A DNA stretch of 64,000 nt from Psychrobacter arenosus (lineage in GTDB: Bacteria > Pseudomonadota > Gammaproteobacteria > Pseudomonadales > Moraxellaceae). Location: assembly GCF_904848165.1 (NCBI RefSeq), contig NZ_LR884459.1, forward strand, positions 620,001 to 684,000, written 5' to 3'. A program made the position numbers and the translations under genes. The notes beneath the pieces were generated by a model, which did not search any database, was not told the DNA's origin, and saw only the letters and a program-made list of their open reading frames with translations. This document shows positions 51,861-63,011 of the stretch, piece by piece; the stretch's first letter is position 1; every line of letters starts with the position of its first letter.

Positions 51861-52295
51861 TTAACTCTTTACCGTCTTAGCATGTACCCAATAGCCCACT
51901 AGCATAGCCGCAAGGAATAATATGGCCTCAGAATAGCCTGCTAATGCAGTGACCAATGCGGGTGCTGGGCAAAAGCCTAACATACCCCAACCAATACCGA
52001 ATAGCATACTACCAATGATTAATTTTGGCGTGATTTGGGTAGCCGTGGGTAAGGCGATTTCATCACCGTTAAGCGCAGGCTGATTATTACGGATACGCTG
52101 CTTGACGTAAAAGAACGCCGGCATGGCCACCGCAATTGCCGCTCCCATCACCAATCCTAGCGAAGGGTCCCAACGGTCGAATACCCGTAGGAATGCCACC
52201 ACTTTATTAGGGTCTACCATCTGCGCGATAATAAGACCGATGCCAAAAACCATCCCAGCGATAAGGCTGATAACGAGGGTCATTGTCCGATTCAT
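51861..52295 (-). CDS. YeeE/YedE-type half transporter (DUF6691 type)
   Basis: 144 aa with four hydrophobic helices and GMLGFCPAPALVTALAG, the cysteine motif of the YeeE/YedE sulfur-transport family. It is one of a split pair; the partner lies 29 bases upstream on the same strand. Pairs like this are thought to move thiosulfate or other reduced sulfur compounds across the inner membrane. Downstream of the ArsR gene at 52922. Confidence 0.88.
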   Translation of the reverse strand: MNRTMTLVISLIAGMVFGIGLIIAQMVDPNKVVAFLRVFDRWDPSLGLVMGAAIAVAMPAFFYVKQRIRNNQPALNGDEIALPTATQITPKLIIGSMLFGIGWGMLGFCPAPALVTALAGYSEAILFLAAMLVGYWVHAKTVKS

Positions 52296-52324
52296 AGTAA
52301 GTCTCCTAGGGTCTTATAATGACC

Positions 52325-52753
52325 TTATAACAACGCAAATAGCGAGGCCGTCGCCACACCACCAATCATAAAAGTAACCGTCGCCGCTATTGAGCGCGTT
52401 GACAACCGTGAGATACCGCAAACCCCATGACCACTCGTGCAACCTGAGCCAAGACGGGTGCCATAGCCGACTAAGAGACCCGCTAAAATAATGCGCCAAA
52501 GAGGCTGATCAATGGTGAATTCTGGGAAACCCACTGTCAGAGCATAGCCCCAAGTTGCTAGCGCCATCCCTAAGATAAAAGTCAATTGCCAGCTGAGTTT
52601 GGGCAGTTGCTTAAGCATGCTGCTGGTGATACCGCTGACACCGAGGATACGGCCAATACCGACGATAAGAATAGCCGCTGCTAAACCAATTAAAGCACCG
52701 CCAAGCAAGGCACTACCCGGCGTAAAATTCGCAAAATTTATCCAAGTGTCCAT
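52325..52753 (-). CDS. YeeE/YedE-type half transporter
   Basis: 142 aa, four hydrophobic helices. The conserved GSGCTSGHGVCGISRLS motif carries the two cysteines of the YeeE/YedE family. Together with the downstream gene (29-base gap) it makes a full-size transporter. The ArsR gene about 170 bases upstream probably controls it. Confidence 0.9.
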   Translation of the reverse strand: MDTWINFANFTPGSALLGGALIGLAAAILIVGIGRILGVSGITSSMLKQLPKLSWQLTFILGMALATWGYALTVGFPEFTIDQPLWRIILAGLLVGYGTRLGSGCTSGHGVCGISRLSTRSIAATVTFMIGGVATASLFALL

Positions 52754-52921
52754 GCGCCCTCCTAATAGAGCGTAAAATAATAGTAAGTCTGGGGATTGAA
52801 GGTATAAGGCTAAGACTTAACCACTCAAAGCGGTTGGCTCTGAGCTGAGCTGAGCAGCTAAGCTAATGACTGACTTTTGCAGATGGCCGCAGTGTCTTAA
52901 CACCGCCCTTAAAGCTAGTGA

Positions 52922-53272
52922 TTAAGCTTCTTTGGCAGGACCACAAAAGCGCTGATAGAGCACTTCCATCACTGCCATCGCATCCTCGCTAGCAATGCTG
53001 TAGTAAATTTGACGGCCTTCGCGACGAGTTGCCACTAAATCGTTGTCGCGCAGTTTGCCCAATTGCTGAGATAAGCTCGGCTGTTTAATACCCGTTAAAG
53101 TCTCCAGCTCTTGCACGCAAGCCTCGCCTTGTACCAGTTGACAAAGCAGCAGTAAGCGATCGGGATGCGACAATAACTTAAGCAAGTTTGAAGCCTCTGT
53201 CGCAGCAGCTTTTAATTGCTCAAAATCAATTTCGGCAGCAGGTGCTGCAGCAGCAAGAGTAGACGAAGTCAT
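52922..53272 (-). CDS. ArsR family sulfur-responsive repressor (BigR/YgaV type)
   Basis: 116 aa from the ATG at 53272 (AGGA upstream; an earlier in-frame ATG at 53305 lacks one). Winged helix with LLKLLSHPDRLLLLCQLVQGEACVQELE and the recognition helix KQPSLSQQLGKLRDNDLV. Cys44 and Cys110 are 66 residues apart, the same spacing as the persulfide-sensing pair of BigR and SqrR. No metal-binding ELCVCDL motif is present. It should repress the two YeeE/YedE genes and be released by persulfide; this is inferred from the family. Confidence 0.88.
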   Translation of the reverse strand: MTSSTLAAAAPAAEIDFEQLKAAATEASNLLKLLSHPDRLLLLCQLVQGEACVQELETLTGIKQPSLSQQLGKLRDNDLVATRREGRQIYYSIASEDAMAVMEVLYQRFCGPAKEA

Positions 53273-53454
53273 GGTGGCTATTCCTATAAATGGAGCTATG
53301 AACACGGTGGAGCGCTATATTAATAGGCTACTGCCTGATAATAAAGAAAAATCACAGGTTCAAATACAATATAAATGATTATAGCTAATTATAACATTAA
53401 ATATTATATAAATTTGTATATTGTTAGATATTTATTTTCAGTTAACGTTTAGGG

Positions 53455-54345
53455 TCAAGCATTTTCAGTAATGCCTTGCACATAATCCACGCACAAGTCA
53501 GAAAAAGCCTGGGCCTGTGGCGAGATGCTTTTGCCCGCATTGCTGAATATCCCAATTTGTCGTTGCAATGCAGGCTCTAACAGAGGCAGCCAAACCAAGG
53601 TGGGCTCATGGGCTGGAAAAGCCAATTTAGGCAGCGTGGTGATACCCAGTCCGTGGTTGAGTAAAGAAAATAGCGAGGTGATATTTTCTACAACATATCT
53701 TGGTTTCTGATTCAGCTCTTGTGCCGCTGTGCCCTCCAATAGACGACAAGTCCCATTATAGATAAAAGGCTGCGCTACTAAATCTTGCCAAGTCACCCCA
53801 TTGGCAAATTGAGCCAAAGGATGATCGATGGTGCAAACTACCCCTACGGGATCGGATAACAAATAGCGAAAGTCTATTTCAGCCGAAGCTACTGACGTAT
53901 AGTTGCCGAGCGCAATATCTACCTCTCCTGCCAGCAGCCGCCTAGTAACGCCAACGGAACTGTCATCGACTAAACTGACCTCGACATTGGGATAGCGTTT
54001 AGAGTATTCGGCTAAGACATTCGGTATCAGCTTAGTCGCCAGTGAAGGCACGCTAGCGATACGCACCTTACCCTGTTCACCAATGGCAGCCGCCTTTAAA
54101 TCGGTCTCTAATATCTCATAAGAGGTCATAAACTGCTGAATTTTCACTAGGCATACCTCGCCAAAAGGCGTCAGTGTCGCCTTATTGCCGCGCTCAAATA
54201 AACGTTGCCCTAAAGTCTCCTCTAAAGCCTTGATTGATGAGGATAAAGACGCTTGTGACCGATTGGCTTTCGTCGATGCTGCTCGAAACCCCCCTTCTGC
54301 TACCACCAGTAAAAAATGCCGCAATTGCTGTAATTTTATATTCAT
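53455..54345 (-). CDS. LysR family regulator of the 54.5-62.1 kb gene set
   Basis: 296 aa: winged HTH (residues 1-62, with FRAASTKANRSQASLSSSIKALEETLG) and a LysR ligand-binding domain (about 90-290). It is divergent from the RidA gene, and the 198-base space holds two palindromes with GATAG/CTATC arms, suitable for a LysR tetramer. Likely regulates the catabolic genes to its right; ligand unknown. Confidence 0.9.
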   Translation of the reverse strand: MNIKLQQLRHFLLVVAEGGFRAASTKANRSQASLSSSIKALEETLGQRLFERGNKATLTPFGEVCLVKIQQFMTSYEILETDLKAAAIGEQGKVRIASVPSLATKLIPNVLAEYSKRYPNVEVSLVDDSSVGVTRRLLAGEVDIALGNYTSVASAEIDFRYLLSDPVGVVCTIDHPLAQFANGVTWQDLVAQPFIYNGTCRLLEGTAAQELNQKPRYVVENITSLFSLLNHGLGITTLPKLAFPAHEPTLVWLPLLEPALQRQIGIFSNAGKSISPQAQAFSDLCVDYVQGITENA

Positions 54346-54368
54346 AAACCTCTCTTTTATCTGGCTTA

Positions 54369-54412
54369 GATAGCGCTATCATCTCGTAGTGACTGATAGA
54401 TAAAATCTATCA
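54369..54412. promoter_or_regulatory. Two GATAG-armed palindromes, candidate LysR operator
   Basis: A 12-bp perfect palindrome GATAGCGCTATC (54369-54380) and a 19-base palindrome TGATAGAT-AAA-ATCTATCA (54394-54412) share the same half-site. The second contains the LysR T-N11-A pattern. They lie 24-67 bases before the LysR start and 132-175 bases before ridA. Confidence 0.6.
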
Positions 54413-54543
54413 TAATTAAAATATAACTTGTTAGATTTATCACTTACTGTGGCGTAGCATACAGGGTAATCCTCAAGCACTTCTATTAATATTGACGCTA
54501 ATAGCAAGCATGGACGAGGTAATAATATAATCAGGATGCCCCC

Positions 54544-54942
54544 ATGAGCAACACAACCCCAAAAAAGACCCCCGTGAAGACCTCTCTTTATGCTTCCAAG
54601 GCCCCTTTAGAATGGGCAGTGACCAGCCAAGGGACGCTTTACACCGCACAGATTCCTATCGATGAAACCGGCAATGTGGTCGCAGGTGGTATCGAGCCAC
54701 AAACGCGGCAGACTTTCGAAAATCTAAAACACACACTAGCTTGCGCAGGCGAAGATATGGATTCGGTGCTGCAAGTCTTAATCTATGTCACGGATCGCAG
54801 CTATCTAACTACAGTCAACCAAGTTTATGCCGAATACTTCACGCCACCGTATCCTAATCGCGCGGCGATGGTAGTGGCTGGGCTCGCCCGCGAAGAAATG
54901 TTGGTGGAGTTTGTAGTCTATGCTGCGACGGCCACGCCTTAA
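54544..54942 (+). CDS. RidA family (enamine/imine deaminase) protein
   Basis: 132 aa trimeric RidA/YjgF fold. Conserved YTAQIPIDETGNVVAGGIEPQTRQTFENLK, VLIYVTD, and the substrate-binding Arg in PYPNRAAMVVAGL, with the VEFVVYA end. RidA proteins hydrolyse reactive enamines and imines to ketones and ammonia. Placed first in the catabolic set, so it probably clears or converts an enamine intermediate of that pathway rather than being the housekeeping copy. AGGA precedes the ATG. Confidence 0.9.
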   Translation: MSNTTPKKTPVKTSLYASKAPLEWAVTSQGTLYTAQIPIDETGNVVAGGIEPQTRQTFENLKHTLACAGEDMDSVLQVLIYVTDRSYLTTVNQVYAEYFTPPYPNRAAMVVAGLAREEMLVEFVVYAATATP

Positions 54943-55074
54943 GCCAGCAACCAGCCAATAAACAAAACCAGGCAATAAACTTTTCGCAAATAACCTTATA
55001 TTTTTAATAGCTCCTTATTTTATTTTTAACAGTCTTTGATTTATTTTAATTCACTTTTAGCAATAGGACTTTTT

Positions 55075-56529
55075 ATGACCACGCACCCTACTGAAAACGC
55101 CCTCTATATCAATGGCGAATGGCGCACAGGCGACCACACTGTCACCAATATTAACCCCTCTGACATCAGCGAAATCATTGGCGAGTATGCGCAAGGCAAT
55201 GCTGAGCATGTACAAGAAGCCATAGCAGCGGCCCGTCAAGCACAACCGCTGTGGGAACGCACGCCTATGGAGCGCAAGCAAGCCATTTTGCAGGCTATCG
55301 GGGATGAAATGATCGCCCGCTGTGATGAGCTGGGTCGCCTATTGTCTCGTGAAGAAGGCAAACCCTTTGCTGAAGGTCGCGGTGAAATCTATCGTGCAGG
55401 CCAGTTTTTTCATTATTTTGCCGCTGAAGTATTGCGCCAAATGGGCGATCTCGCAGACTCAGTAAGAGCCGGCGTGAAGGTCGAGGTGACCCGTGAAGCT
55501 GTGGGTGTTGTGGCGATTATTTCCCCTTGGAACTTCCCTACCGCCACTGCCGTTTGGAAGATTGCTCCAGCACTTGCTTTTGGCAACAGTGTCATCTGGA
55601 AGCCGGCTAACCTCACTCCAGCCAGCGCCGTCGCCATGACCGAAATCATTCATCGTCATGGTCTGCCACCGGGTACATTTAACTTGGTATTGGGCAGTGG
55701 CAGTAGCGTCGGTGATGCTTTGATTAACTCGCCAGATATCGACGCGGTTAGCTTTACCGGCTCAGTACCTACGGGTCGCAAAGTCGCTGCCGCAACGGCG
55801 CCTAACTTTGTACGCTGCCAGCTTGAAATGGGCAGTAAAAATGCTTTAGTCATCGCCAACGACGCCGATTTAGAAATCGCTATCCAAGCGACTATCGCAG
55901 GCTCTTTTTCAGGCGCTGGGCAGAAGTGTACCGCCTCCTCGCGCTTACTGGTCATGGACAGCATCTATGATGAATACGTTGAGCTGCTTACAGAGCGTAT
56001 GAAAGGCCTAAAAGTTGGTCATGCGTTAGAGGACGGTGTCTTTATGGGACCGGTTGTCGATGACAAACAGTTGGCTGCCAACCTACAGTGGATTGATCGT
56101 GCCAAAGCACTGGGTGCGACACTTGCGCACGGTGGCGAGCGCCTCGATATGCCCCATGAAGGCTACTACATGGCTCCTACCCTATTCGTTGATACGCAAA
56201 ACGACTGGGATATCAACCAAGAAGAAGTGTTTGCCCCGCTCGCCTGCGTCATCCGTATTGAAGATGATATCGAAGAGGCCATCGCCTTAACCAATGCCAC
56301 TCGTTTTGGTTTGACCGGCGGCATCATCACCCAGAGCTTGCGCAACAGTGCTTTGTTTAAAGAGCAAGTCCAAGCCGGCTGTACGATGGTTAACCTTGCT
56401 ACAGCAGGAACCGATTATCACGTGCCGTTTGGCGGTCGTAAGTCATCGAGCTTTGGTCCGCGCGAGCAAGGTCAGTACGCCAAAGAGTTTTACACAGTCG
56501 TCAAAACTTCATATCAACGCGCTTATTAA
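55075..56529 (+). CDS. Aldehyde dehydrogenase, alpha-ketoglutarate-semialdehyde type
   Basis: 484 aa from the ATG at 55075 (AGGA 6 bases before; the frame is open 13 codons further). NAD(P)-dependent ALDH with ISPWNFPTATAVWKIAPALAFGN, FTGSVPTGR, catalytic Glu in LEMGSKNAL and catalytic Cys in SGAGQKCTASSRLL. The C-terminal NLATAGTDYHVPFGGRKSSS with GPREQGQYAKEFYT resembles bacterial 2,5-dioxopentanoate (alpha-ketoglutarate semialdehyde) dehydrogenases. In this set it would oxidise a dicarboxylate semialdehyde; the exact aldehyde is inferred. Confidence 0.9.
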   Translation: MTTHPTENALYINGEWRTGDHTVTNINPSDISEIIGEYAQGNAEHVQEAIAAARQAQPLWERTPMERKQAILQAIGDEMIARCDELGRLLSREEGKPFAEGRGEIYRAGQFFHYFAAEVLRQMGDLADSVRAGVKVEVTREAVGVVAIISPWNFPTATAVWKIAPALAFGNSVIWKPANLTPASAVAMTEIIHRHGLPPGTFNLVLGSGSSVGDALINSPDIDAVSFTGSVPTGRKVAAATAPNFVRCQLEMGSKNALVIANDADLEIAIQATIAGSFSGAGQKCTASSRLLVMDSIYDEYVELLTERMKGLKVGHALEDGVFMGPVVDDKQLAANLQWIDRAKALGATLAHGGERLDMPHEGYYMAPTLFVDTQNDWDINQEEVFAPLACVIRIEDDIEEAIALTNATRFGLTGGIITQSLRNSALFKEQVQAGCTMVNLATAGTDYHVPFGGRKSSSFGPREQGQYAKEFYTVVKTSYQRAY

Positions 56530-56543
56530 GCTATTGGCTAGAC

Positions 56544-56585
56544 CGTCAGTTAAAGAGCGTCGGTTAAAGAGCGTCAGTTAAAGAC
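56544..56585 (+). repeat. Three 14-base tandem repeats
   Basis: CGTCAGTTAAAGAG, CGTCGGTTAAAGAG and CGTCAGTTAAAGAC follow each other without gaps between the aldehyde dehydrogenase stop and the dipeptidase-like gene. They could be an upstream regulatory repeat or replication slippage. Confidence 0.8.
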
Positions 56586-56624
56586 AATCAGGATGTGGCC
56601 GGCAACGGCCTATAGGGACATATT

Positions 56625-57659
56625 ATGTATCAGCAGCACACCGTCATTGATGGATTGCAGTATAGCAACTGGACACGCGAGTATTTCTTAATGCTGCAAG
56701 CCAGTGGTATCCACGCCGTCCATGCCACCTTGGTTTACCACGAAGACGCCCGCGCCACCTTGACGCGCTTCGCTGAGTGGGATGCTCGCTTTGAGCGCAA
56801 CGCCGATATTATCATGCCCATATATTCGGTAGCCGATATCGCACAGGCCAAAGCTCAAGGCAAAGTGGGTATCTTATTTGGCGCACAAAATTGCTCACCC
56901 ATCGATGATGAAATCGGCCTAGTTAGCGTGATGCGCCGACAAGGACTGCTCATTATGCAGCTCACTTATAACAACCAAAGTCTACTGGCTACGGGCTGTT
57001 ATGAGCAAAACGACACCGGTATCACCCGTTTTGGTCGGCAGGTCATCCGTGAAATGAACCGCGTGGGCATGATTATCGATATGTCACATAGCGCTGAGCG
57101 TTCCACGCTAGAGGCCATCGAGCTATCCGAGCGCCCTATCTGTATCAGCCATGCCAACCCTACTTTTGCTCACGATGCGCTGCGCAATAAATCGGACACC
57201 GTGATTAAAGCTCTGTGCGCCAAAGGCGGCTTGCTCGGCTTTAGTCTCTATCCTTTTCATCTGCCCAATGGTAGCGACTGCCGCCTAGAAGATTTCTGCA
57301 GCATGGTAGCCCGCACCGCCGACATGGTAGGTGTGCAGCACTTAGGTATTGGTAGTGACTTGTGTCTGAATCAACCGACCGCTGTCCTCGAATGGATGCG
57401 TAATGGTCGCTGGTCCAAAGACATGGATTATGGCGAAGGCTCAGCCAGTAACGCTGGCTGGCCGGACTCGCTCCCTTGGTTTGCGGGCAAGTCAGGGATG
57501 GAAAACATTTATAACGGACTGTTAAAGACAGGCTTTTCAGATGCTGAAGCCGGTCAAATTATTGGCGGCAATTGGGTAGATTTTTTACAACAATCGCTGA
57601 CCCCTATGACTGAGCTTAATCAAGCTCATAACCTTATGCCAATGAGCGCCGATGCCTAA
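56625..57659 (+). CDS. Membrane-dipeptidase (M19)-like protein with missing metal ligands
   Basis: 344-aa TIM-barrel protein of the renal dipeptidase family. His155 (IDMSHSA), His176 (CISHANP) and Asp245 (IGSDL) are kept. The N-terminal His-x-Asp pair is replaced: the motif is DGLQYSNW (Leu11, Tyr13) in place of DGHNDLP, and the bridging Glu region reads ILFGAQN near residue 86. From memory, a similar DGL..SNW subfamily occurs beside glycine-betaine catabolism genes in Pseudomonas, also without known function. It is unlikely to be an ordinary dipeptidase. AGGGA precedes the ATG. Confidence 0.85.
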   Translation: MYQQHTVIDGLQYSNWTREYFLMLQASGIHAVHATLVYHEDARATLTRFAEWDARFERNADIIMPIYSVADIAQAKAQGKVGILFGAQNCSPIDDEIGLVSVMRRQGLLIMQLTYNNQSLLATGCYEQNDTGITRFGRQVIREMNRVGMIIDMSHSAERSTLEAIELSERPICISHANPTFAHDALRNKSDTVIKALCAKGGLLGFSLYPFHLPNGSDCRLEDFCSMVARTADMVGVQHLGIGSDLCLNQPTAVLEWMRNGRWSKDMDYGEGSASNAGWPDSLPWFAGKSGMENIYNGLLKTGFSDAEAGQIIGGNWVDFLQQSLTPMTELNQAHNLMPMSADA

Positions 57660-57678
57660 CTAAGTCGTGCTTAGTTTT
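57658..57678 (+). terminator. Weak hairpin after the dipeptidase-like gene
   Basis: AACTAAG / CTTAGTT stem, 5-base loop, followed by TTAG. Too weak for a certain terminator; may attenuate read-through to the BCCT gene. Confidence 0.35.
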
Positions 57679-57822
57679 AGCCTACCTTAAAGCTAGGTTC
57701 TGTCATCGCTATCAGCGCTTTAAACTTCCACTTATCGGCAAGGAAGCCGAGGTCCATACCCGCGACTCTAATAGTTAAGCTTCGCTGGGTTTGACCCTAT
57801 GGTTCTTTCAGGGAGCAAAACC

Positions 57823-59403
57823 ATGCCACCTATTAATGAAGTCAATGTTCAGCCCATTACTACCACCAGCCCTGTCCAGCCTACTGACGCTAGCGCTACA
57901 GATGCCTTAGGGCTCAAAAACCCTGCGCTTTGGTATAGCGGTGGTTTTATCGCCATATTTGTCCTTATGGCGATCTTTAATGAAAAACTTCTAGCCAGCT
58001 TAGTGGACACAGGCTTTGCTTGGTCGGTGAAAATCTTTGGTCCTTATTGGCAAATCTTATTGCTCGCTACCTTCGTGATAGGGATTTTGCTAGCGGCTGG
58101 GCGCACGGGACGGGTCGTATTGGGCAACCTTGCTGCTCCAGAAATGGACAATTTTAAATGGATGGCCATCTTATTTTGTACCCTACTCGCTGGTGGTGGA
58201 GTCTTTTGGGCCGCCGCTGAACCCATCGCTCACTTCGTCACAGCGCCGCCTTTATATGGTGTGCAAAGCGATCCGCAACAAGCCGCCTTCAATGCCTTAT
58301 CACAGTCCTTTATGCACTGGGGATTCTTGGCCTGGGCGATCGTTGGAAGCTTAACATCCATCGTCGTCATGCATTTACACTATGACAAAGGCTTGCCGTT
58401 AAAACCCCGCACTTTACTCTACCCTGTACTTGGCGACCGTGCTTTGACAGGTCATACCGGTGCGCTTATTGATGCTTGCTGTATCATCGCTGTCGCGGCG
58501 GGTACGATTGGTCCTATTGGCTTTTTGGGCCTGCAAGTCAGCTATGCGCTAAATGCTCTTTTTGGCATCCCTGATGGCTTTACCACCCAGCTTATCATCG
58601 TCTTATTTGCTATCGCCTTATATACCATCTCAGCGATTAGTGGCCTGAATCGCGGTATGCAATTACTCAGCCGTTTTAACGTCATCTTGGCTGTAGCTTT
58701 AATGGTCTATATCCTTCTCTTTGGTCCCACTAACTTTATCATTAATGGCTATATCCAAGGCATGGGGACGATGATAGATAACTTTATCCCGATGGCGACT
58801 TACCGTGGTGATGAAGGCTGGCTTAGTTGGTGGACCGTGTTTTTCTGGGGCTGGTTTTTGGGTTACGGTCCGATGATGGCTATCTTTATCGCCCGTATCT
58901 CTCGCGGCCGCACTATCCGCCAACTGATTGTCACCGTCAGTATCGTGGCCCCGCTAGTCACTTGCTTTTGGTTCACTGTCGTTGGGGGTACAGGTTTAGC
59001 CTTTGAAATTGCCAACCCAGGTAGTGTTAGTACCGCTTTTGAAGGATTTAACTTACCAGGGGTGTTGCTCGCCGTTACTCAGCAGCTGCCTTTCCCGCTA
59101 TTAACTTCAGTCTTATTTATCATCTTAACCACCATCTTTATCGTGACCACTGGTGACTCCATGACTTACACCATCAGTGTGGTAATCAGCGGTGAATCCG
59201 AGCCCAATGCCATGATTCGTACCTTTTGGGGCGTCATGATGGGGGTTACGGCTATCGTACTTATCTCGCTTGGCTCCGGTGGGGTTACGGCACTCCAGTC
59301 CTTCATTGTCATTACCGCGGTGCCTGTCTCGCTAATCCTACTGCCCTCTTTATGGAATGGCCCGCAGATTGCTAGGCAAATGGCCGACGAACAAAACTTA
59401 TAA
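57823..59403 (+). CDS. BCCT family transporter with divergent substrate segment
   Basis: 526 aa from the ATG at 57823 (AGGGAG upstream; the frame is open 8 codons further), 12 predicted helices. The family stretch IFIARISRGRTIR is kept, but the substrate-site helix is FFWGWFLGYGPMMAIF instead of the FYWAWWISWSPFVG of the two other BCCT proteins here, and AAEPIAH replaces GTAEPLYH. The C-terminal tail is short, so osmotic sensing is unlikely. Probably imports the substrate of the surrounding catabolic genes. Confidence 0.92.
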   Translation: MPPINEVNVQPITTTSPVQPTDASATDALGLKNPALWYSGGFIAIFVLMAIFNEKLLASLVDTGFAWSVKIFGPYWQILLLATFVIGILLAAGRTGRVVLGNLAAPEMDNFKWMAILFCTLLAGGGVFWAAAEPIAHFVTAPPLYGVQSDPQQAAFNALSQSFMHWGFLAWAIVGSLTSIVVMHLHYDKGLPLKPRTLLYPVLGDRALTGHTGALIDACCIIAVAAGTIGPIGFLGLQVSYALNALFGIPDGFTTQLIIVLFAIALYTISAISGLNRGMQLLSRFNVILAVALMVYILLFGPTNFIINGYIQGMGTMIDNFIPMATYRGDEGWLSWWTVFFWGWFLGYGPMMAIFIARISRGRTIRQLIVTVSIVAPLVTCFWFTVVGGTGLAFEIANPGSVSTAFEGFNLPGVLLAVTQQLPFPLLTSVLFIILTTIFIVTTGDSMTYTISVVISGESEPNAMIRTFWGVMMGVTAIVLISLGSGGVTALQSFIVITAVPVSLILLPSLWNGPQIARQMADEQNL

Positions 59404-59488
59404 CAGTAATACATTAAAAAACCCATTAAAATTATGCTCGGTAATGACCCAAGGATTAGGGTCATTACGTTTAATAAGGTAGTTTGCC

Positions 59489-61378
59489 ATGAATACTCAA
59501 AACCTTAATACTCCGCTATCTGCCACGCTGCCCCCAGCCCAACCTTGGTTTAATGAATGCCAAGTTGATGCTACAGATGCCCTCTGCCGCTCTCCAAACG
59601 TGGTCATGCAGCCTGAAAGACTGGGTGCCATGCACCAGACTCGCTTAAGTTTTGTGCGCCGACTGTTGCGAAAGATTGATAGGGAGTCTTGGCAATTAAC
59701 CAAGCACGTCTGGGCCCTATCGCCAGAAGGTTTTGGTCATGTTATCTACCGGTTAACCACCCCTAACGCTATCTACCATCTGGTGGTATTCTGCAATGAG
59801 ATCGCCGATGACGAGCGCAACGACCGGGTCATCGCACAAAAATGGGACGTGACTTTTTGCCTAGTTTACGGTGAAGTCCACGAGGAGCTGCTACAACAAC
59901 TGCAAGATAACGTGCCGCTACAAGAAGCGGGTCGCAACTCCAATATGGTGATGGTGCTAGCACGAGCGAATAAAAGCGTGCGGGTGTTTGACCATATCGT
60001 TAGCAGCTTAGCGCAAGGCGAGCAGCCTGACCCAGAAGTCTTGGCGCAAGTTGGTTATATCCTGCGCACCACGGCGGTCTATGGTAATGGCAAATTTGGT
60101 ATCTATGACTTTACCCCGCTCAAAGATGATGCGGACTTTGGTCAGTCCTTTAGCGTGCAAATGTGTGCGGTCTATCTGCTCAAACAGTTTAGCGTGGACT
60201 GGGTAGACTATCTGGCGCAGCAGCGCGGTGGCGATCAAGCCGTCAGCTTACATCCTCAGCTTAAACGCTATTTGGGCGTTGGCAATGCCACCGGTTTAGG
60301 CATGGCCCCGTATCTCATTACCCACCCTTGCATCGTCGACCAATGGTTAAGTACCCGTGAGCGCGCCTTAGCGACCGTCTTAGCGACTCCCATAACCCCT
60401 GAACCAGTCCATTATTTACAAAAACTACTGAGCCGAGCTGTCCGTCATCTTGATGAAACCGTCACTATTAATGAGCCGCAGCAGCAACGCAACGCTCAAG
60501 CTGTCATTGAACTGACCGCGCTAATGGCTAGTTTTAAGGATAAAAAACCTGCTGTTAATGACAGTGGAATTACGGGCGCAAATACTGACGGAAATGCGAA
60601 CCAAAACGCTATAGCACTCGCTAATGCCGATACTTGGGGAGCGTTTTTGCAAGCGCATAACGAGCTAAGCTTTGAGGCGCAAGAAGTCCTCATTGCTTGC
60701 TTAATGGAGCTATACCCTGAGCAAGTCGATGCCTTTGAAGATTTAATGAATACCGATGAAAACTTAGAATTGCCCAAAGGTAAAACCATTGCCGATCTCA
60801 TCGAGGTCTTAGAGCAACGCTATGCGTGGGCTATTCACACGGACTTTGACAGTGGCGATAATGCCTATTGGTTTTGGTATCGCTCAGAAGATAAAGAAGA
60901 GCCGCGCTTAGGCATCCGCGGTCAAGAGCCTGGGGTCGATAAAGAACTGCCGCTTGATATTGCTCGGCAGGTGCAGCGTCTATATGCCGCGTTACAAGAT
61001 ACTGATCAATCGCAGACCATTGTGGCTTTTATCCTCAAACATCCCAAGTACCGGGCTATAGCACGGCGCGTCTGGACGCTGGGGCATAGACTTATGGGAG
61101 ATATTCAGATGAATGTGTTGCATAAAGACGCCCTGCCTATGCATCTGCTGCGCTGTAAGCTATCCATGTTTGGCGCTACTAAATTTGATCCACGCTCTGA
61201 CCGCTGGGTCCGTGTCACCCTATTTCAGGGCGCACCGCTGTTTGATGAAATCCATAGCGATGAGTGGTTATTTCCATTGCTGCCCACCCGTGCTGATCTG
61301 AATGCGGATACTTTTAACAACGCAGATATCCCAGTGGCTAGCCCGCTGGTACCGGCTAATTTGGGAGCGCAGTCATGA
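59489..61378 (+). CDS. Uncharacterised 629-aa protein of the catabolic gene set
   Basis: Soluble, with no signal or membrane helix. The N-terminal region carries LCRSPNVVMQPERLGAMHQTRLSF and FGHVIYRLTTPNAIYHLVVF; the middle has RTTAVYGNGKFGIYDF; after an Asn/Ala-rich linker (about 350-380) the C-terminal part has FWYRSEDKEEPRLGIRG and a final RVTLFQGAP. It contains many Trp, Arg and His but no motif I can tie to a known enzyme class. I recall similar proteins beside comparable genes in Alphaproteobacteria, unverified. ATGA overlap with the next gene indicates coupled translation and probably a joint function. Candidate enzyme of the pathway. Confidence 0.85.
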   Translation: MNTQNLNTPLSATLPPAQPWFNECQVDATDALCRSPNVVMQPERLGAMHQTRLSFVRRLLRKIDRESWQLTKHVWALSPEGFGHVIYRLTTPNAIYHLVVFCNEIADDERNDRVIAQKWDVTFCLVYGEVHEELLQQLQDNVPLQEAGRNSNMVMVLARANKSVRVFDHIVSSLAQGEQPDPEVLAQVGYILRTTAVYGNGKFGIYDFTPLKDDADFGQSFSVQMCAVYLLKQFSVDWVDYLAQQRGGDQAVSLHPQLKRYLGVGNATGLGMAPYLITHPCIVDQWLSTRERALATVLATPITPEPVHYLQKLLSRAVRHLDETVTINEPQQQRNAQAVIELTALMASFKDKKPAVNDSGITGANTDGNANQNAIALANADTWGAFLQAHNELSFEAQEVLIACLMELYPEQVDAFEDLMNTDENLELPKGKTIADLIEVLEQRYAWAIHTDFDSGDNAYWFWYRSEDKEEPRLGIRGQEPGVDKELPLDIARQVQRLYAALQDTDQSQTIVAFILKHPKYRAIARRVWTLGHRLMGDIQMNVLHKDALPMHLLRCKLSMFGATKFDPRSDRWVRVTLFQGAPLFDEIHSDEWLFPLLPTRADLNADTFNNADIPVASPLVPANLGAQS

Positions 61379-62142
61379 TTGTCTCACACAACGAAATTGT
61401 CACTTTGGTCAATAAAGCTTTTCTAGGCATGCACCGCGAAACCGGTGAGGCTGATTTGATTGCGAATATGGTAGCCGAGCTGCAAATGGCTGGGCTCGAA
61501 GGTATTCGTCACTTTAATAATGCTAGCGACTATATTTTGACAGAACAAGATGCGCCCATTGATATTCTTTCAGACGGTGTCACAGAGCATGCCGGTGCTC
61601 AAGAGTTGCTGACCAGCACTACCATCGTCTTTGATGTGCATGGCAGCAGTATCGCTTGCCACCTCCCCGCTATCCTTGATTATGCGCTCGAGCGTATGAC
61701 AGACTGCCCGCATATTATCTTGGACCTACATAACTGCCATAACCGTTGGTTGGCCTATGGCGAGCTGATCAAGCTGGCTTCCAAAGGCATCGCATGTGTC
61801 GCCCGTTGGGACAATGGCAGGGCGCCCAAACACACACTATTTGTATTAAACCAAGGCCACAGCTACCCTGAGCTGTACTTTTTTGACGACAACCCCAGCA
61901 GCGACTATCGTACCCAAGACTTGGTCATTGAACTATCCTTACTGAATTTTGATCTGCCCACTTATCATCGCGATGATTACAGCCACCGTATCAGCTCAGA
62001 GCAAATTATCGAGCTGCACCAACAGGCTTGGAAATCCGGTATTTATGTAGATGATGGCGAGTGGCAGACGCTAAAGCAGACCGCGACGAATATTCTGGTA
62101 GAGAACAGTGAACAATCGCGCCAAGGTGCGGGCGGGGTATAA
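61375..62142 (+). CDS. Uncharacterised 255-aa protein (DUF3726-like)
   Basis: Soluble, overlapping the previous gene by four bases (ATGA). The N-terminus MIVSHNEIVTLVNKAFLGMHRETGEADLIANMVAELQMAGLEGI resembles the DUF3726 family, which begins with a similar helix-turn pattern. Later parts include TTIVFDVHGSSIACHLPAILDYAL and WDNGRAPKHTLFVLNQGHSYPELY. The tail is acidic. No catalytic motif is obvious; it may be the partner subunit of the 629-aa protein. Function unknown. Confidence 0.8.
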   Translation: MIVSHNEIVTLVNKAFLGMHRETGEADLIANMVAELQMAGLEGIRHFNNASDYILTEQDAPIDILSDGVTEHAGAQELLTSTTIVFDVHGSSIACHLPAILDYALERMTDCPHIILDLHNCHNRWLAYGELIKLASKGIACVARWDNGRAPKHTLFVLNQGHSYPELYFFDDNPSSDYRTQDLVIELSLLNFDLPTYHRDDYSHRISSEQIIELHQQAWKSGIYVDDGEWQTLKQTATNILVENSEQSRQGAGGV

Positions 62143-62174: not shown

Positions 62175-63011
62175 CTATAAAGTGCCCGAAAACTGATAAC
62201 GATTGCCGGCATGCCACATATTTACACAAGTCACCACCTGCCCGGCGGAATAGGTCTTACGGCTTAACAATAACGCCGGTGCGCCTTCGCTAATCCCCAA
62301 GACTTGGGCGACTTCCGCGGGGGCAGCAACCGCTTTAATGGTATAACTGCCGCCCTCTAAAGGCACCTGCGCAATCAAATAATCGCTAGTGTTGGTGACG
62401 CTGAAGTCCTGCTCGATAAAGTTGGGCACCAGTTGCGCATCTACCCAGCGCTCCTCAAATTGCATGGCCTCACCATCTGCAATATGTACAATCTTAACCA
62501 CATCTACCTCGCCGTCTACTACCGGCATATTCTTACCTTCATTAGTCACTGCATTTTGGAAATATGTCCTTAATTTTTTATCGATAGCGGTGAAAGGCAC
62601 ACGCTGTATGCTTAATACTTTCGCCTCATAAGTTTTATGGGCGGATTTAAGGTCTTCAGCGATGTTTCTCACTTCGACAAAGGTATGGTTAAACTGTTGC
62701 TGCGCGACAAAAGTCCCTGAACCTTGGCGACGCTCTAATACCCGCTCTTCGCTCAATTCTTTAAGCGCTCTATTCACCGTCATCCGCGAAACGCCAAAAG
62801 TGTCCGCTAAAGCAAATTCTGTGGGGATAGCATCGCCCGCCTGCCACACACCCGAATGAATATTCTGTAAGATACTGTCTTTAATCCGTTGATAAGCCGG
62901 AATAGCTTTGGCTTTAGTGCCAACAGTACTCGTAGACTTCGTCAGCGCTTGCTTTTGCGACTTAGCTTTAGGCTTGGCAATGGGGTCGGATATGGGCATA
63001 GATTTAGACAT
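62175..63011 (-). CDS. hutC: HutC-type GntR family regulator
   Basis: 278 aa. A basic, low-complexity N-terminal extension (about 35 residues) precedes the GntR winged helix (AYQRIKDSILQNIHSGVW ... SRMTVNRALKELSEERVLERRQGSGTFVA), followed by a UTRA ligand domain (about 125-270). The UTRA details (FEERWVDAQLVPNFIEQDFSVTN, SYTIKAVAAPAEVAQVLGI, QVVTCVNMWHAGNRYQFSG) resemble histidine-utilisation repressors, whose inducer is urocanate. It sits 13 bases after the DUF2058 gene, so is probably co-transcribed with it, and is convergent to the 255-aa gene. A matching palindrome lies at 63899. Confidence 0.88.
   Translation of the reverse strand: MSKSMPISDPIAKPKAKSQKQALTKSTSTVGTKAKAIPAYQRIKDSILQNIHSGVWQAGDAIPTEFALADTFGVSRMTVNRALKELSEERVLERRQGSGTFVAQQQFNHTFVEVRNIAEDLKSAHKTYEAKVLSIQRVPFTAIDKKLRTYFQNAVTNEGKNMPVVDGEVDVVKIVHIADGEAMQFEERWVDAQLVPNFIEQDFSVTNTSDYLIAQVPLEGGSYTIKAVAAPAEVAQVLGISEGAPALLLSRKTYSAGQVVTCVNMWHAGNRYQFSGTL

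Follow-up and report, generated by a model that had tools for sequence, protein, structure and literature searches.

A RidA-bearing gene island of Psychrobacter arenosus, probably a variant of a conserved operon for homarine or a very similar N-methyl-pyridine-carboxylate

Described pathways and layout of the island

The tgn pathway of trigonelline degradation comprises the opening of an N-methyl-pyridinium carboxylate, the oxidation of a semialdehyde and the release of a one-carbon unit and of methylamine, and its TgnAB proteins form a two-component flavin monooxygenase. The tgn genes were reportedly described for Acinetobacter by Perchat in 2018. For homarine (N-methylpicolinate) a catabolic operon named homABCDER is said to have been reported by Ferrer-Gonzalez et al. 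in 2026 (Nat Microbiol 11:1531), and the name reportedly stands for five enzyme-type genes and a regulator. The available part of PMC13390433 cites a conserved homarine pathway published in 2026 and states that a role of Mgd in homarine catabolism has been reported; the available parts of PMC12817926, PMC9723723 and PMC9038784 name no homarine genes. Among the entries listed by literature searches under homarine degradation, trigonelline pathway, DUF3726 and homABCDER, none hinted at the gene set treated here.

The window, i.e., the stretch of 64,000 nucleotides of Psychrobacter arenosus DNA that was analysed, contains six co-directional genes facing a divergent LysR gene, and the coordinates and the Pfam families agree with this arrangement as given in a preliminary description:

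53455 to 54345, minus strand: LysR-family regulator, divergent (Pfam LysR_substrate 141 bits, and HTH_1)
54394 to 54412, no strand: putative LysR operator, dyad TGATA-N9-TATCA, a perfect 8-base inverted repeat
54544 to 54942, plus strand: RidA/YjgF family protein, proposed imine hydrolase (PF01042, Ribonuc_L-PSP, 82.7 bits)
55075 to 56529, plus strand: aldehyde dehydrogenase, ALDH (PF00171, Aldedh, 504 bits)
56625 to 57659, plus strand: degenerate M19 (membrane dipeptidase-like) amidohydrolase (PF01244, Peptidase_M19, 241 bits, cut-off 26)
57799 to 59403, plus strand: BCCT transporter (PF02028, 504 bits)
59489 to 61378, plus strand: U629 (629 aa), candidate core enzyme without Pfam or NCBIfam match
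61375 to 62142, plus strand: DUF3726 protein (255 aa), degenerate Ldh_2-fold partner of U629 (Pfam DUF3726)

The ALDH frame has an ATG start at 55075, and its longest form begins with TTG at 55036. The intergenic gaps measure 198 bases (LysR–RidA), 132 (RidA–ALDH), 95 (ALDH–M19), 139 (M19–BCCT) and 85 (BCCT–U629); of the range of 85–163 bases given before, the lower value was recovered but none of the measured gaps is 163 bases long. The ATGA overlap mentioned there is that of the last two genes, U629 and DUF3726.

The exact sequence TGATA-N9-TATCA is present in 22 of 34 LysR–RidA intergenic regions (the window included, and many of them from close relatives), where shuffling of the bases would lead one to expect 0.03; of 39 LysR–ALDH regions a single one contains it. 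The LysR protein may sense the substrate or an intermediate and act at this site between lysR and ridA.

Proteins of the island

The RidA protein scores below the cut-off of TIGR00004 (72.9 vs 106.25 bits), and its membership in PF01042 supports the earlier suggestion that it could carry out an imine or enamine step. For the ALDH the best NCBIfam model is indeed the alpha-ketoglutaric semialdehyde dehydrogenase NF042993, as had been proposed, but its 468 bits are far under the cut-off of 770 and the nearest solved proteins are betaine aldehyde dehydrogenases. The transporter belongs to the BCCT family by PF02028, which supports a putative importer of betaine-type compounds; it remains under the cut-off of the betaine_BCCT model of NCBIfam (332 vs 650 bits), and the closest solved protein is the trimethylamine transporter 8zw8 (E 4.5e-66). 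The motif WW..W in the TM8 region of 8zw8, which we take to be involved in substrate binding, reads WF..Y in the window protein.

In M19 dipeptidases an HxD motif and a bridging Glu supply the ligands of the binuclear zinc site. The window protein belongs to this family and retains some residues of the site, two His, an Arg and an Asp: H155, H176, R187 and D245 are invariant in an alignment (A4) of 31 sequences, namely the window protein, those of L140 and L141 and 28 of 62 sequences. In contrast, none of the 31, the window protein included, has kept the HxD ligands or the bridging Glu, which are substituted throughout, and the term "degenerate M19" is thus appropriate. The same replacements are found in the nearest solved relative, the amidohydrolase 2i5g (E 1.6e-57).

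U629 matched no Pfam or NCBIfam family in profile searches. An alignment (A2) of 53 sequences, the window protein and 52 of 75 listed sequences, has 80 invariant columns, and the AF2 model (pLDDT 86.4) found no fold match in the PDB. A fusion of U629 with DUF3726 was also found. A further alignment (A3) of 43 sequences consisted of the window sequence and 42 of 61 sequences. DUF3726 has the Ldh_2 fold; compared with the Ldh_2 family (YiaK, sulfolactate dehydrogenase, DpkA) it is shorter and devoid of the SHG motif, which carries the catalytic His of these reductases. This motif is present in both linked true Ldh proteins aligned and missing from 7 of 7 rows of the DUF3726 type.

Conservation of the gene set and its two endings

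The gene order of the window is met again, beyond chance, at loci of Vibrio, Photobacterium, Shewanella, Moritella and other Psychrobacter, and a rearranged set is found in Halomonas, Marinobacter, Pseudomonas, Phaeobacter and Bacillota. One coherent LysR-linked catabolic unit, as in the preliminary description, is supported. The set is widely conserved; a restriction to close relatives, which that description had named as speaking against its proposal, does not apply. Within 10 kb of 129 distinct U629 loci (130 before near-identical ones were merged, some cut by contig ends) there are M19 in 122 cases, DUF3726 in 113, ALDH in 106, BCCT in 91 and a LysR gene of the window type in 89. U629 is present in many Rhodobacterales, and two SAR11-like single-contig genomes (1.20 and 1.32 Mb) carry M19-U629-DUF3726; the stretches read from them have a G+C content of 31 and 28% and gave no ALDH or Ldh match. 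Soil or plant isolates of Aminobacter, Caballeronia and Mesorhizobium also have the set, and homarine would be an unexpected diet for them. Two long open reading frames without Pfam match (831 and 684 aa) in the high-G+C locus L040 were dropped as extra genes because tblastn found the ordinary ALDH-M19-BCCT there. Pfam matches to TilS, a carbon-nitrogen hydrolase and a biotin carboxylase in L047 and L049 are apparently unrelated.

RidA and an Ldh_2 reductase nearly exclude each other at these loci. Among 132 loci, RidA without Ldh is present in 75, Ldh without RidA in 23 and neither gene in 34, and no locus has both (five Rid queries at E ≤1e-3 with half of the query covered; Ldh at E <1e-15; both within 10 kb), and the best quick U629 tree implies seven changes between the two; this tree holds 107 of the 132 loci (at least 5 kb of context and at least 250 residues, the window itself left out), and at 86 of these 107 one of the two genes is present. 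It is on this count and these changes that the exclusion is based. With 11 independent pairs on supported branches, 2–5 were opposite and none the same, which is not significant (median p 0.25). In a set of eight later loci, searched at E 1e-4 without the query-coverage and stricter Ldh filters, two (L229 and L231) have both genes within 10 kb.

The Ldh protein of Phaeobacter is closest in the PDB to a delta1-piperideine-2-carboxylate reductase (6.4e-58; the next match 5e-39), and among the NCBIfam models that of sulfolactate dehydrogenase fits it best, though far under the cut-off (184 vs 500 bits). According to the available part of PMC6775277, DpkA, a reductase of the former kind, also converts 2-oxo acids and methylamine to N-methyl amino acids. 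Of the 22 Ldh loci, 4 have a match to SoxB or SoxD within 10 kb, as do 2 of the 37 loci with neither gene and none of the 70 RidA loci. Fisher tests on such neighbourhood counts take no account of relatedness among the loci, and their values are left aside. Sarcosine-oxidase-type genes lie next to the operon in Phaeobacter, in Shinella and in a record named Roseateles, with the gene of an AraC/GlxA-type regulator in between; for the regulator of Phaeobacter the closest model is that of the choline regulator GbdR, far under its cut-off (203 vs 480 bits). The flanking heterotetramer may be either Mgd or a sarcosine oxidase; in R. pomeroyi the AraC-type tmaR adjoins mgdABCD, as stated in the available part of PMC13390433.

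In the whole genome of the window organism SoxD (PF04267) gave no match, in a search that was positive in 27 of 50 genomes; the published link of homarine to Mgd is therefore missing from this organism, and the absence fits the RidA ending. Within the class of the window organism SoxD is found in 1 of 13 mapped genomes of the RidA type (G327, which has both), in all 10 mapped genomes whose locus lacks RidA (nine with neither gene, four of them near a contig end, and G245 with Ldh) and in 0 of 11 genomes whose locus was unmapped. In another class of the same phylum, taken as the alphaproteobacteria, all 16 genomes have SoxD whatever their ending, and this holds also for G399, G414 and G577, which are outside the window's class and whose loci include a Rid gene. 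As the distribution follows lineage, at least in part, the presence of SoxD anywhere in a genome was rejected as a means of telling the two endings apart in general.

Proposed pathway and alternatives

We consider it rather likely that a conserved operon for homarine, or for an N-methyl-pyridine-carboxylate very similar to it, is represented by this island in its gammaproteobacterial variant with RidA, and homarine, one of the substrates named in the preliminary description, is the preferred one. In Alisedimentitalea (L200) the order is LysR, ALDH-M19-U629-DUF3726-Ldh and then BCCT, and we presume that its five enzyme-type genes and LysR match the composition of homABCDER. The likeness to the hom operon extends to the Mgd/Sox-type genes adjoining some U629 loci and to the presence of U629 in many Rhodobacterales and SAR11-like genomes. 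On the contrary, the window version has RidA and lacks the fifth gene, the Ldh_2 reductase, has its own BCCT gene and belongs to a genome in which SoxD, looked for as a sign of N-methylglutamate dehydrogenase, gave no match; its ending appears to differ from that of the operons which include a reductase. Judging from the citation in the available part of PMC13390433, the pathway of 2026 probably covers the core genes, and the label "undescribed" of the preliminary description is not supported.

Following this reading, the BCCT protein would import the zwitterion, and a complex of U629 and DUF3726, perhaps together with the M19-like protein, might open the N-methylated ring, which is the least certain step. 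The ALDH, by its family, would oxidise the resulting C5 semialdehyde, and the M19-like protein would probably remove a one-carbon (formyl) piece or hydrolyse another amide or imine. RidA could then hydrolyse the N-methyl-imino- or enamino-glutarate to 2-oxoglutarate and methylamine. In other, mostly alphaproteobacterial relatives a DpkA-like Ldh_2 reductase would in its place yield N-methylglutamate, to be converted to glutamate by the heterotetrameric N-methylglutamate dehydrogenase. A mass balance made by hand gives homarine + 4 H2O = N-methylglutamate + formate + 2[H]. The proposed chemistry is similar to that of the tgn pathway in ring opening, semialdehyde oxidation and release of a one-carbon unit and methylamine. 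However, by Pfam the proteins of the island include no known oxygenase or flavoprotein, a point against the homarine reading, and none of the TgnAB-type flavoprotein family.

The operon could instead serve another N-methylated heterocycle or betaine (trigonelline, or a proline, pyrrole or imidazole betaine) and only resemble the homarine operon, the trio of U629, DUF3726/Ldh-like protein and M19 being a module reused for several substrates. This is suggested by a divergent clade (28–30% identity) in which, in Sinorhizobium and Alloyangia, the trio is retained along with a Rid protein, an IclR regulator, an ABC transporter and adjoining aminotransferase and succinate-semialdehyde dehydrogenase genes, by the occurrence of the set in Bacillota, Pseudomonas and soil isolates and by the differing transporters of the loci (BCCT, glycine-betaine ABC, branched-chain-type ABC). 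Nevertheless, the loci with the gene order of the window are of one kind throughout the range between Psychrobacter and Vibrionaceae (43–83% identity by gene), and the Sox/Mgd-type neighbours together with the DpkA-like Ldh of some relatives suggest an N-methyl-2-amino acid as end product. We regard this alternative as unlikely.

Still less probable is a six-carbon route. Deaminases of the RidA family acting on 2-aminomuconate exist, and hydrolytic opening of the pyridinium ring to N-methyl-2-aminomuconate semialdehyde followed by oxidation by the ALDH would give N-methyl-2-aminomuconate as a substrate for RidA. The lack of an oxygenase and matches of the ALDH to muconic-type semialdehyde dehydrogenases, both under their cut-offs (TIGR02299 394 bits, TIGR03216 315 bits), would suit such a route, but the best model of the ALDH is that of the five-carbon enzyme, no clear role is left for M19 and Mgd, reported in homarine breakdown, acts on the five-carbon N-methylglutamate (available part of PMC13390433).

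Pathways of the glycine-betaine or carnitine type use Rieske or flavin demethylases. Catabolism of glycine betaine, carnitine or another aliphatic betaine is very improbable: BCCT and betaine-type ABC transporters occur at the loci, 7 of 129 loci have a Rieske gene like that of Phaeobacter at a distance of up to 10 kb and the GbdR-like regulator adjoins one locus, but the other 122 loci have no match to this Rieske protein, which itself is distant from known ones (CntA 7.9e-25; GbcA 97 vs 670 bits), and we know of no role of ALDH-M19-U629-DUF3726 in such pathways.

Returning to the homarine operon, we put forward with considerable reservation, as a possible but doubtful extension, that U629 and DUF3726, an unrecognised fold and a dead dehydrogenase, are the first example of a novel type of enzyme which opens the ring of N-methyl-pyridinium carboxylates and does so with no known flavin or oxygenase, that the pathway has two interchangeable ends (DpkA-like Ldh and Mgd via N-methylglutamate, or RidA hydrolysis to 2-oxoglutarate and free methylamine), RidA acting as an enzyme dedicated to catabolism, and that bacteria of the RidA type are a marine source of methylamine.

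Homarine is a nitrogen compound common in the sea and an abundant solute of phytoplankton and invertebrates. If the homarine reading is true, one core (ALDH, M19-like protein, U629 and DUF3726) would be combined with two endings that differ in the fate of nitrogen: the reductase ending would keep the nitrogen and the methyl group (N-methylglutamate, glutamate, tetrahydrofolate), whereas the RidA ending would release methylamine, and the type of ending would therefore decide which bacteria supply methylamine to others. In addition, two unnamed families, U629 and DUF3726, would obtain a concrete role and a RidA protein a catabolic one, and the place to search for the ring-opening step would be located.

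Gene set and borders of the island

The island (53455–62142) contains six genes read in the same direction and a divergent LysR gene. This arrangement and the single ATGA overlap, which joins the U629 and DUF3726 genes, were recovered as the preliminary description had them.

Gene order and features of the island and its right border
Divergent from the six genes: LysR regulator
54394–54412, LysR–RidA intergenic region: TGATA-N9-TATCA, likely LysR site
First gene: RidA
55075–56529, second gene: aldehyde dehydrogenase (ALDH)
56625–57659, third gene: M19-like amidohydrolase
Fourth gene: BCCT transporter
59489–61378, + strand, fifth gene: U629 (629 aa)
61375–62142, + strand, sixth gene: DUF3726 protein (255 aa)
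62175–63011, adjoining the island: HutC-type repressor, passes TIGR02018

To the right a HutC-like regulator follows and, beyond it in the genome, genes of the urocanase, aromatic amino acid lyase and amidohydrolase families are found, and therefore we place the end of the island at 62142. The repressor is probably part of a histidine-utilisation set farther right in L202, the rightward continuation of this locus. At 51861–53305 two small sulphur-transport-type proteins (DUF6691 and Sulf_transp) are encoded next to an ArsR-type regulator whose closest match is BigR (107 of 155 bits); this is probably a sulphur-handling unit of the ordinary kind. Between the BCCT and U629 genes there is a perfect 10-base inverted repeat (59441–59468; GTAATGACCC, 8 bases, GGGTCATTAC), with no clear T run 3′ of it.

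The motif TGATA-N9-TATCA is present between LysR and RidA at 22 of 34 loci, the window among them and many from close relatives, compared with 0.03 expected from base shuffles; among LysR–ALDH regions it was found in one of 39. It is a likely LysR site. The M19-like protein had been called degenerate, and indeed HxD and the bridging glutamate are missing in all 31 aligned sequences. Two histidines, one arginine and one aspartate are retained in all of them, and a new set of invariant residues is found, for example, QN.S, YNNQ, and WMR.G.W. The nearest solved protein, 2i5g, has the same replacements. The protein is not a normal dipeptidase.

Distribution of the gene set

Among the best 120 matches listed, the nearest named proteins to U629 are from Psychrobacter and one Neisseria; the genome is of the Psychrobacter type. 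Relatives occur in 15 of 36 genomes of the same genus, 16 of 57 genomes of relatives, 12 of 274 of the class, 29 of 398 of the phylum and 53 of 385 in the class of genome G429 (taken as Alphaproteobacteria), and titled genome records hold them at no fewer than 567 loci. Of 72,556 plasmid records, 168 carry a relative. The hosts comprise Vibrio, Photobacterium, Shewanella, Halomonas, Marinobacter, Pseudomonas, Paraburkholderia, many Rhodobacterales, rhizobia, Bacillota, and one haloarchaeon. Within 10 kb of U629 at 129 distinct loci, a few of them possibly incomplete because a contig ends there, we found M19 (122), DUF3726 (113), ALDH (106), BCCT (91), LysR (89), and RidA (70). As U629 is spread over many taxa and its neighbours are kept, the set is more than a local peculiarity; conservation outside close relatives, on which the preliminary description had made its proposal depend, is thus found. 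The island is a real, conserved catabolic operon.

One genome of the same genus (G030) has two full copies at different places (L052, L053), and the flanking genes vary among same-genus genomes, which suggests transfer of the island. In three Bacillota loci (L113, L124, L130) similar parts are rearranged: the order is U629–M19–DUF3726–ALDH, and the same two gene clusters plus BCCT come next at each locus; at L113, the one family-tested, the clusters are an IclR regulator and a YjgF protein (PF14588). A divergent clade of about 28–30% identity in Sinorhizobium and Alloyangia (L196, 9010–12456; L201, 8983–12385) retains U629 with a second protein next to it (weakly Ldh_2-like in L196) and a dipeptidase; an IclR regulator, an ABC transporter and a Rid protein accompany them. 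This clade may carry out the same chemistry on another substrate.

Proposed pathway and its two endings

The substrate is most likely homarine, one of the candidates among which the preliminary description had left the choice open. We suggest that U629–DUF3726 would open the ring, that ALDH would oxidise C5 and that the formyl group would be taken off by the M19-like protein. C6 of homarine would be lost as formate, whereas C2 to C5 would be retained along with the carboxyl carbon, giving N-methylglutamate (C7H7NO2 + 4 H2O = C6H11NO4 + CH2O2 + 2[H]). The best model for ALDH is the five-carbon alpha-ketoglutaric semialdehyde dehydrogenase, with a score far under its cut-off, and solved betaine aldehyde dehydrogenases are closer to it than the solved dehydrogenase of that semialdehyde.

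In some relatives, mostly alphaproteobacterial, a true Ldh_2 reductase stands in place of RidA; gammaproteobacterial cases are L046, L108, L119, L121, L122, and L136. Within 10 kb, a Rid protein occurs at 75 of 132 loci and Ldh at 23; 34 loci have neither, and at none do the two occur together. The best quick U629 tree requires seven changes between RidA and Ldh. A later set of eight loci gave one with Ldh, five with neither and two with both (L229, L231), so that the mutual exclusion is strong, though with exceptions. At the two loci with both, the Rid gene lies some 4–6 kb off, 3′ of a gene with weak similarity to dimethylglycine dehydrogenase, and Ldh is on the opposite strand.

Proteins of the RidA family hydrolyse imines. 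Both enzymes could act on the same N-methyl-imine, which Ldh would reduce and RidA would split; the last step would then yield N-methylglutamate in the Ldh form and 2-oxoglutarate and methylamine in the RidA form. The solved protein closest to the Phaeobacter Ldh is delta1-piperideine-2-carboxylate reductase; among NCBIfam models this Ldh scores best against sulfolactate dehydrogenase, but far below the cut-off. An excerpt of a study on DpkA describes reduction of cyclic imines and formation of N-methyl amino acids from 2-oxo acids and methylamine (PMC6775277). A search of the genome containing the window gave no match to SoxD, a sarcosine-oxidase-type subunit, as expected if the N-methylglutamate end is not used there. 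Within the class SoxD is present in one of 13 mapped RidA-type genomes versus 10 of 10 mapped genomes whose locus lacks RidA; in the other class all 16 genomes possess SoxD regardless of the ending.

Probable link to the homarine operon

A homarine operon named homABCDER was reportedly described in 2026, with N-methylglutamate and glutamate as products, and is said to occur in Rhodobacterales, SAR11, and SAR116. The Alisedimentitalea locus comprises a LysR gene, five enzyme-type genes and BCCT; leaving BCCT aside, this fits the name homABCDER. Two genomes from the class of G429, each 99% complete and on a single contig (1.20 and 1.32 Mb; G+C 31 and 28% in the stretches read), contain M19–U629–DUF3726 with a SoxA-type match within about 10 kb, which fits the homarine operon; ALDH and Ldh gave no match nearby in these stretches.

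In Phaeobacter, Shinella and a record named Roseateles, genes of a sarcosine-oxidase-type heterotetramer adjoin the operon, with a regulator of the AraC/GlxA type in between. The heterotetramer may be either N-methylglutamate dehydrogenase or sarcosine oxidase, as the NCBIfam models that match it best are the joint sox families. In R. pomeroyi the AraC-type gene tmaR adjoins mgdABCD, coding for N-methylglutamate dehydrogenase, according to an excerpt of PMC13390433, which also states that this enzyme is reported to act in homarine breakdown. A Rieske oxygenase and an aldehyde dehydrogenase lie near the operon in Phaeobacter and on a Pseudomonas plasmid (L140, 12508–17918; L143, 1–1942); the Phaeobacter oxygenase, the one tested, resembles oxygenases for glycine betaine or carnitine only distantly.

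The core of the operon has probably been published already, and the island can hardly be called undescribed, as had been proposed. New parts may be the RidA form, the unusual protein U629 and the nature of DUF3726.
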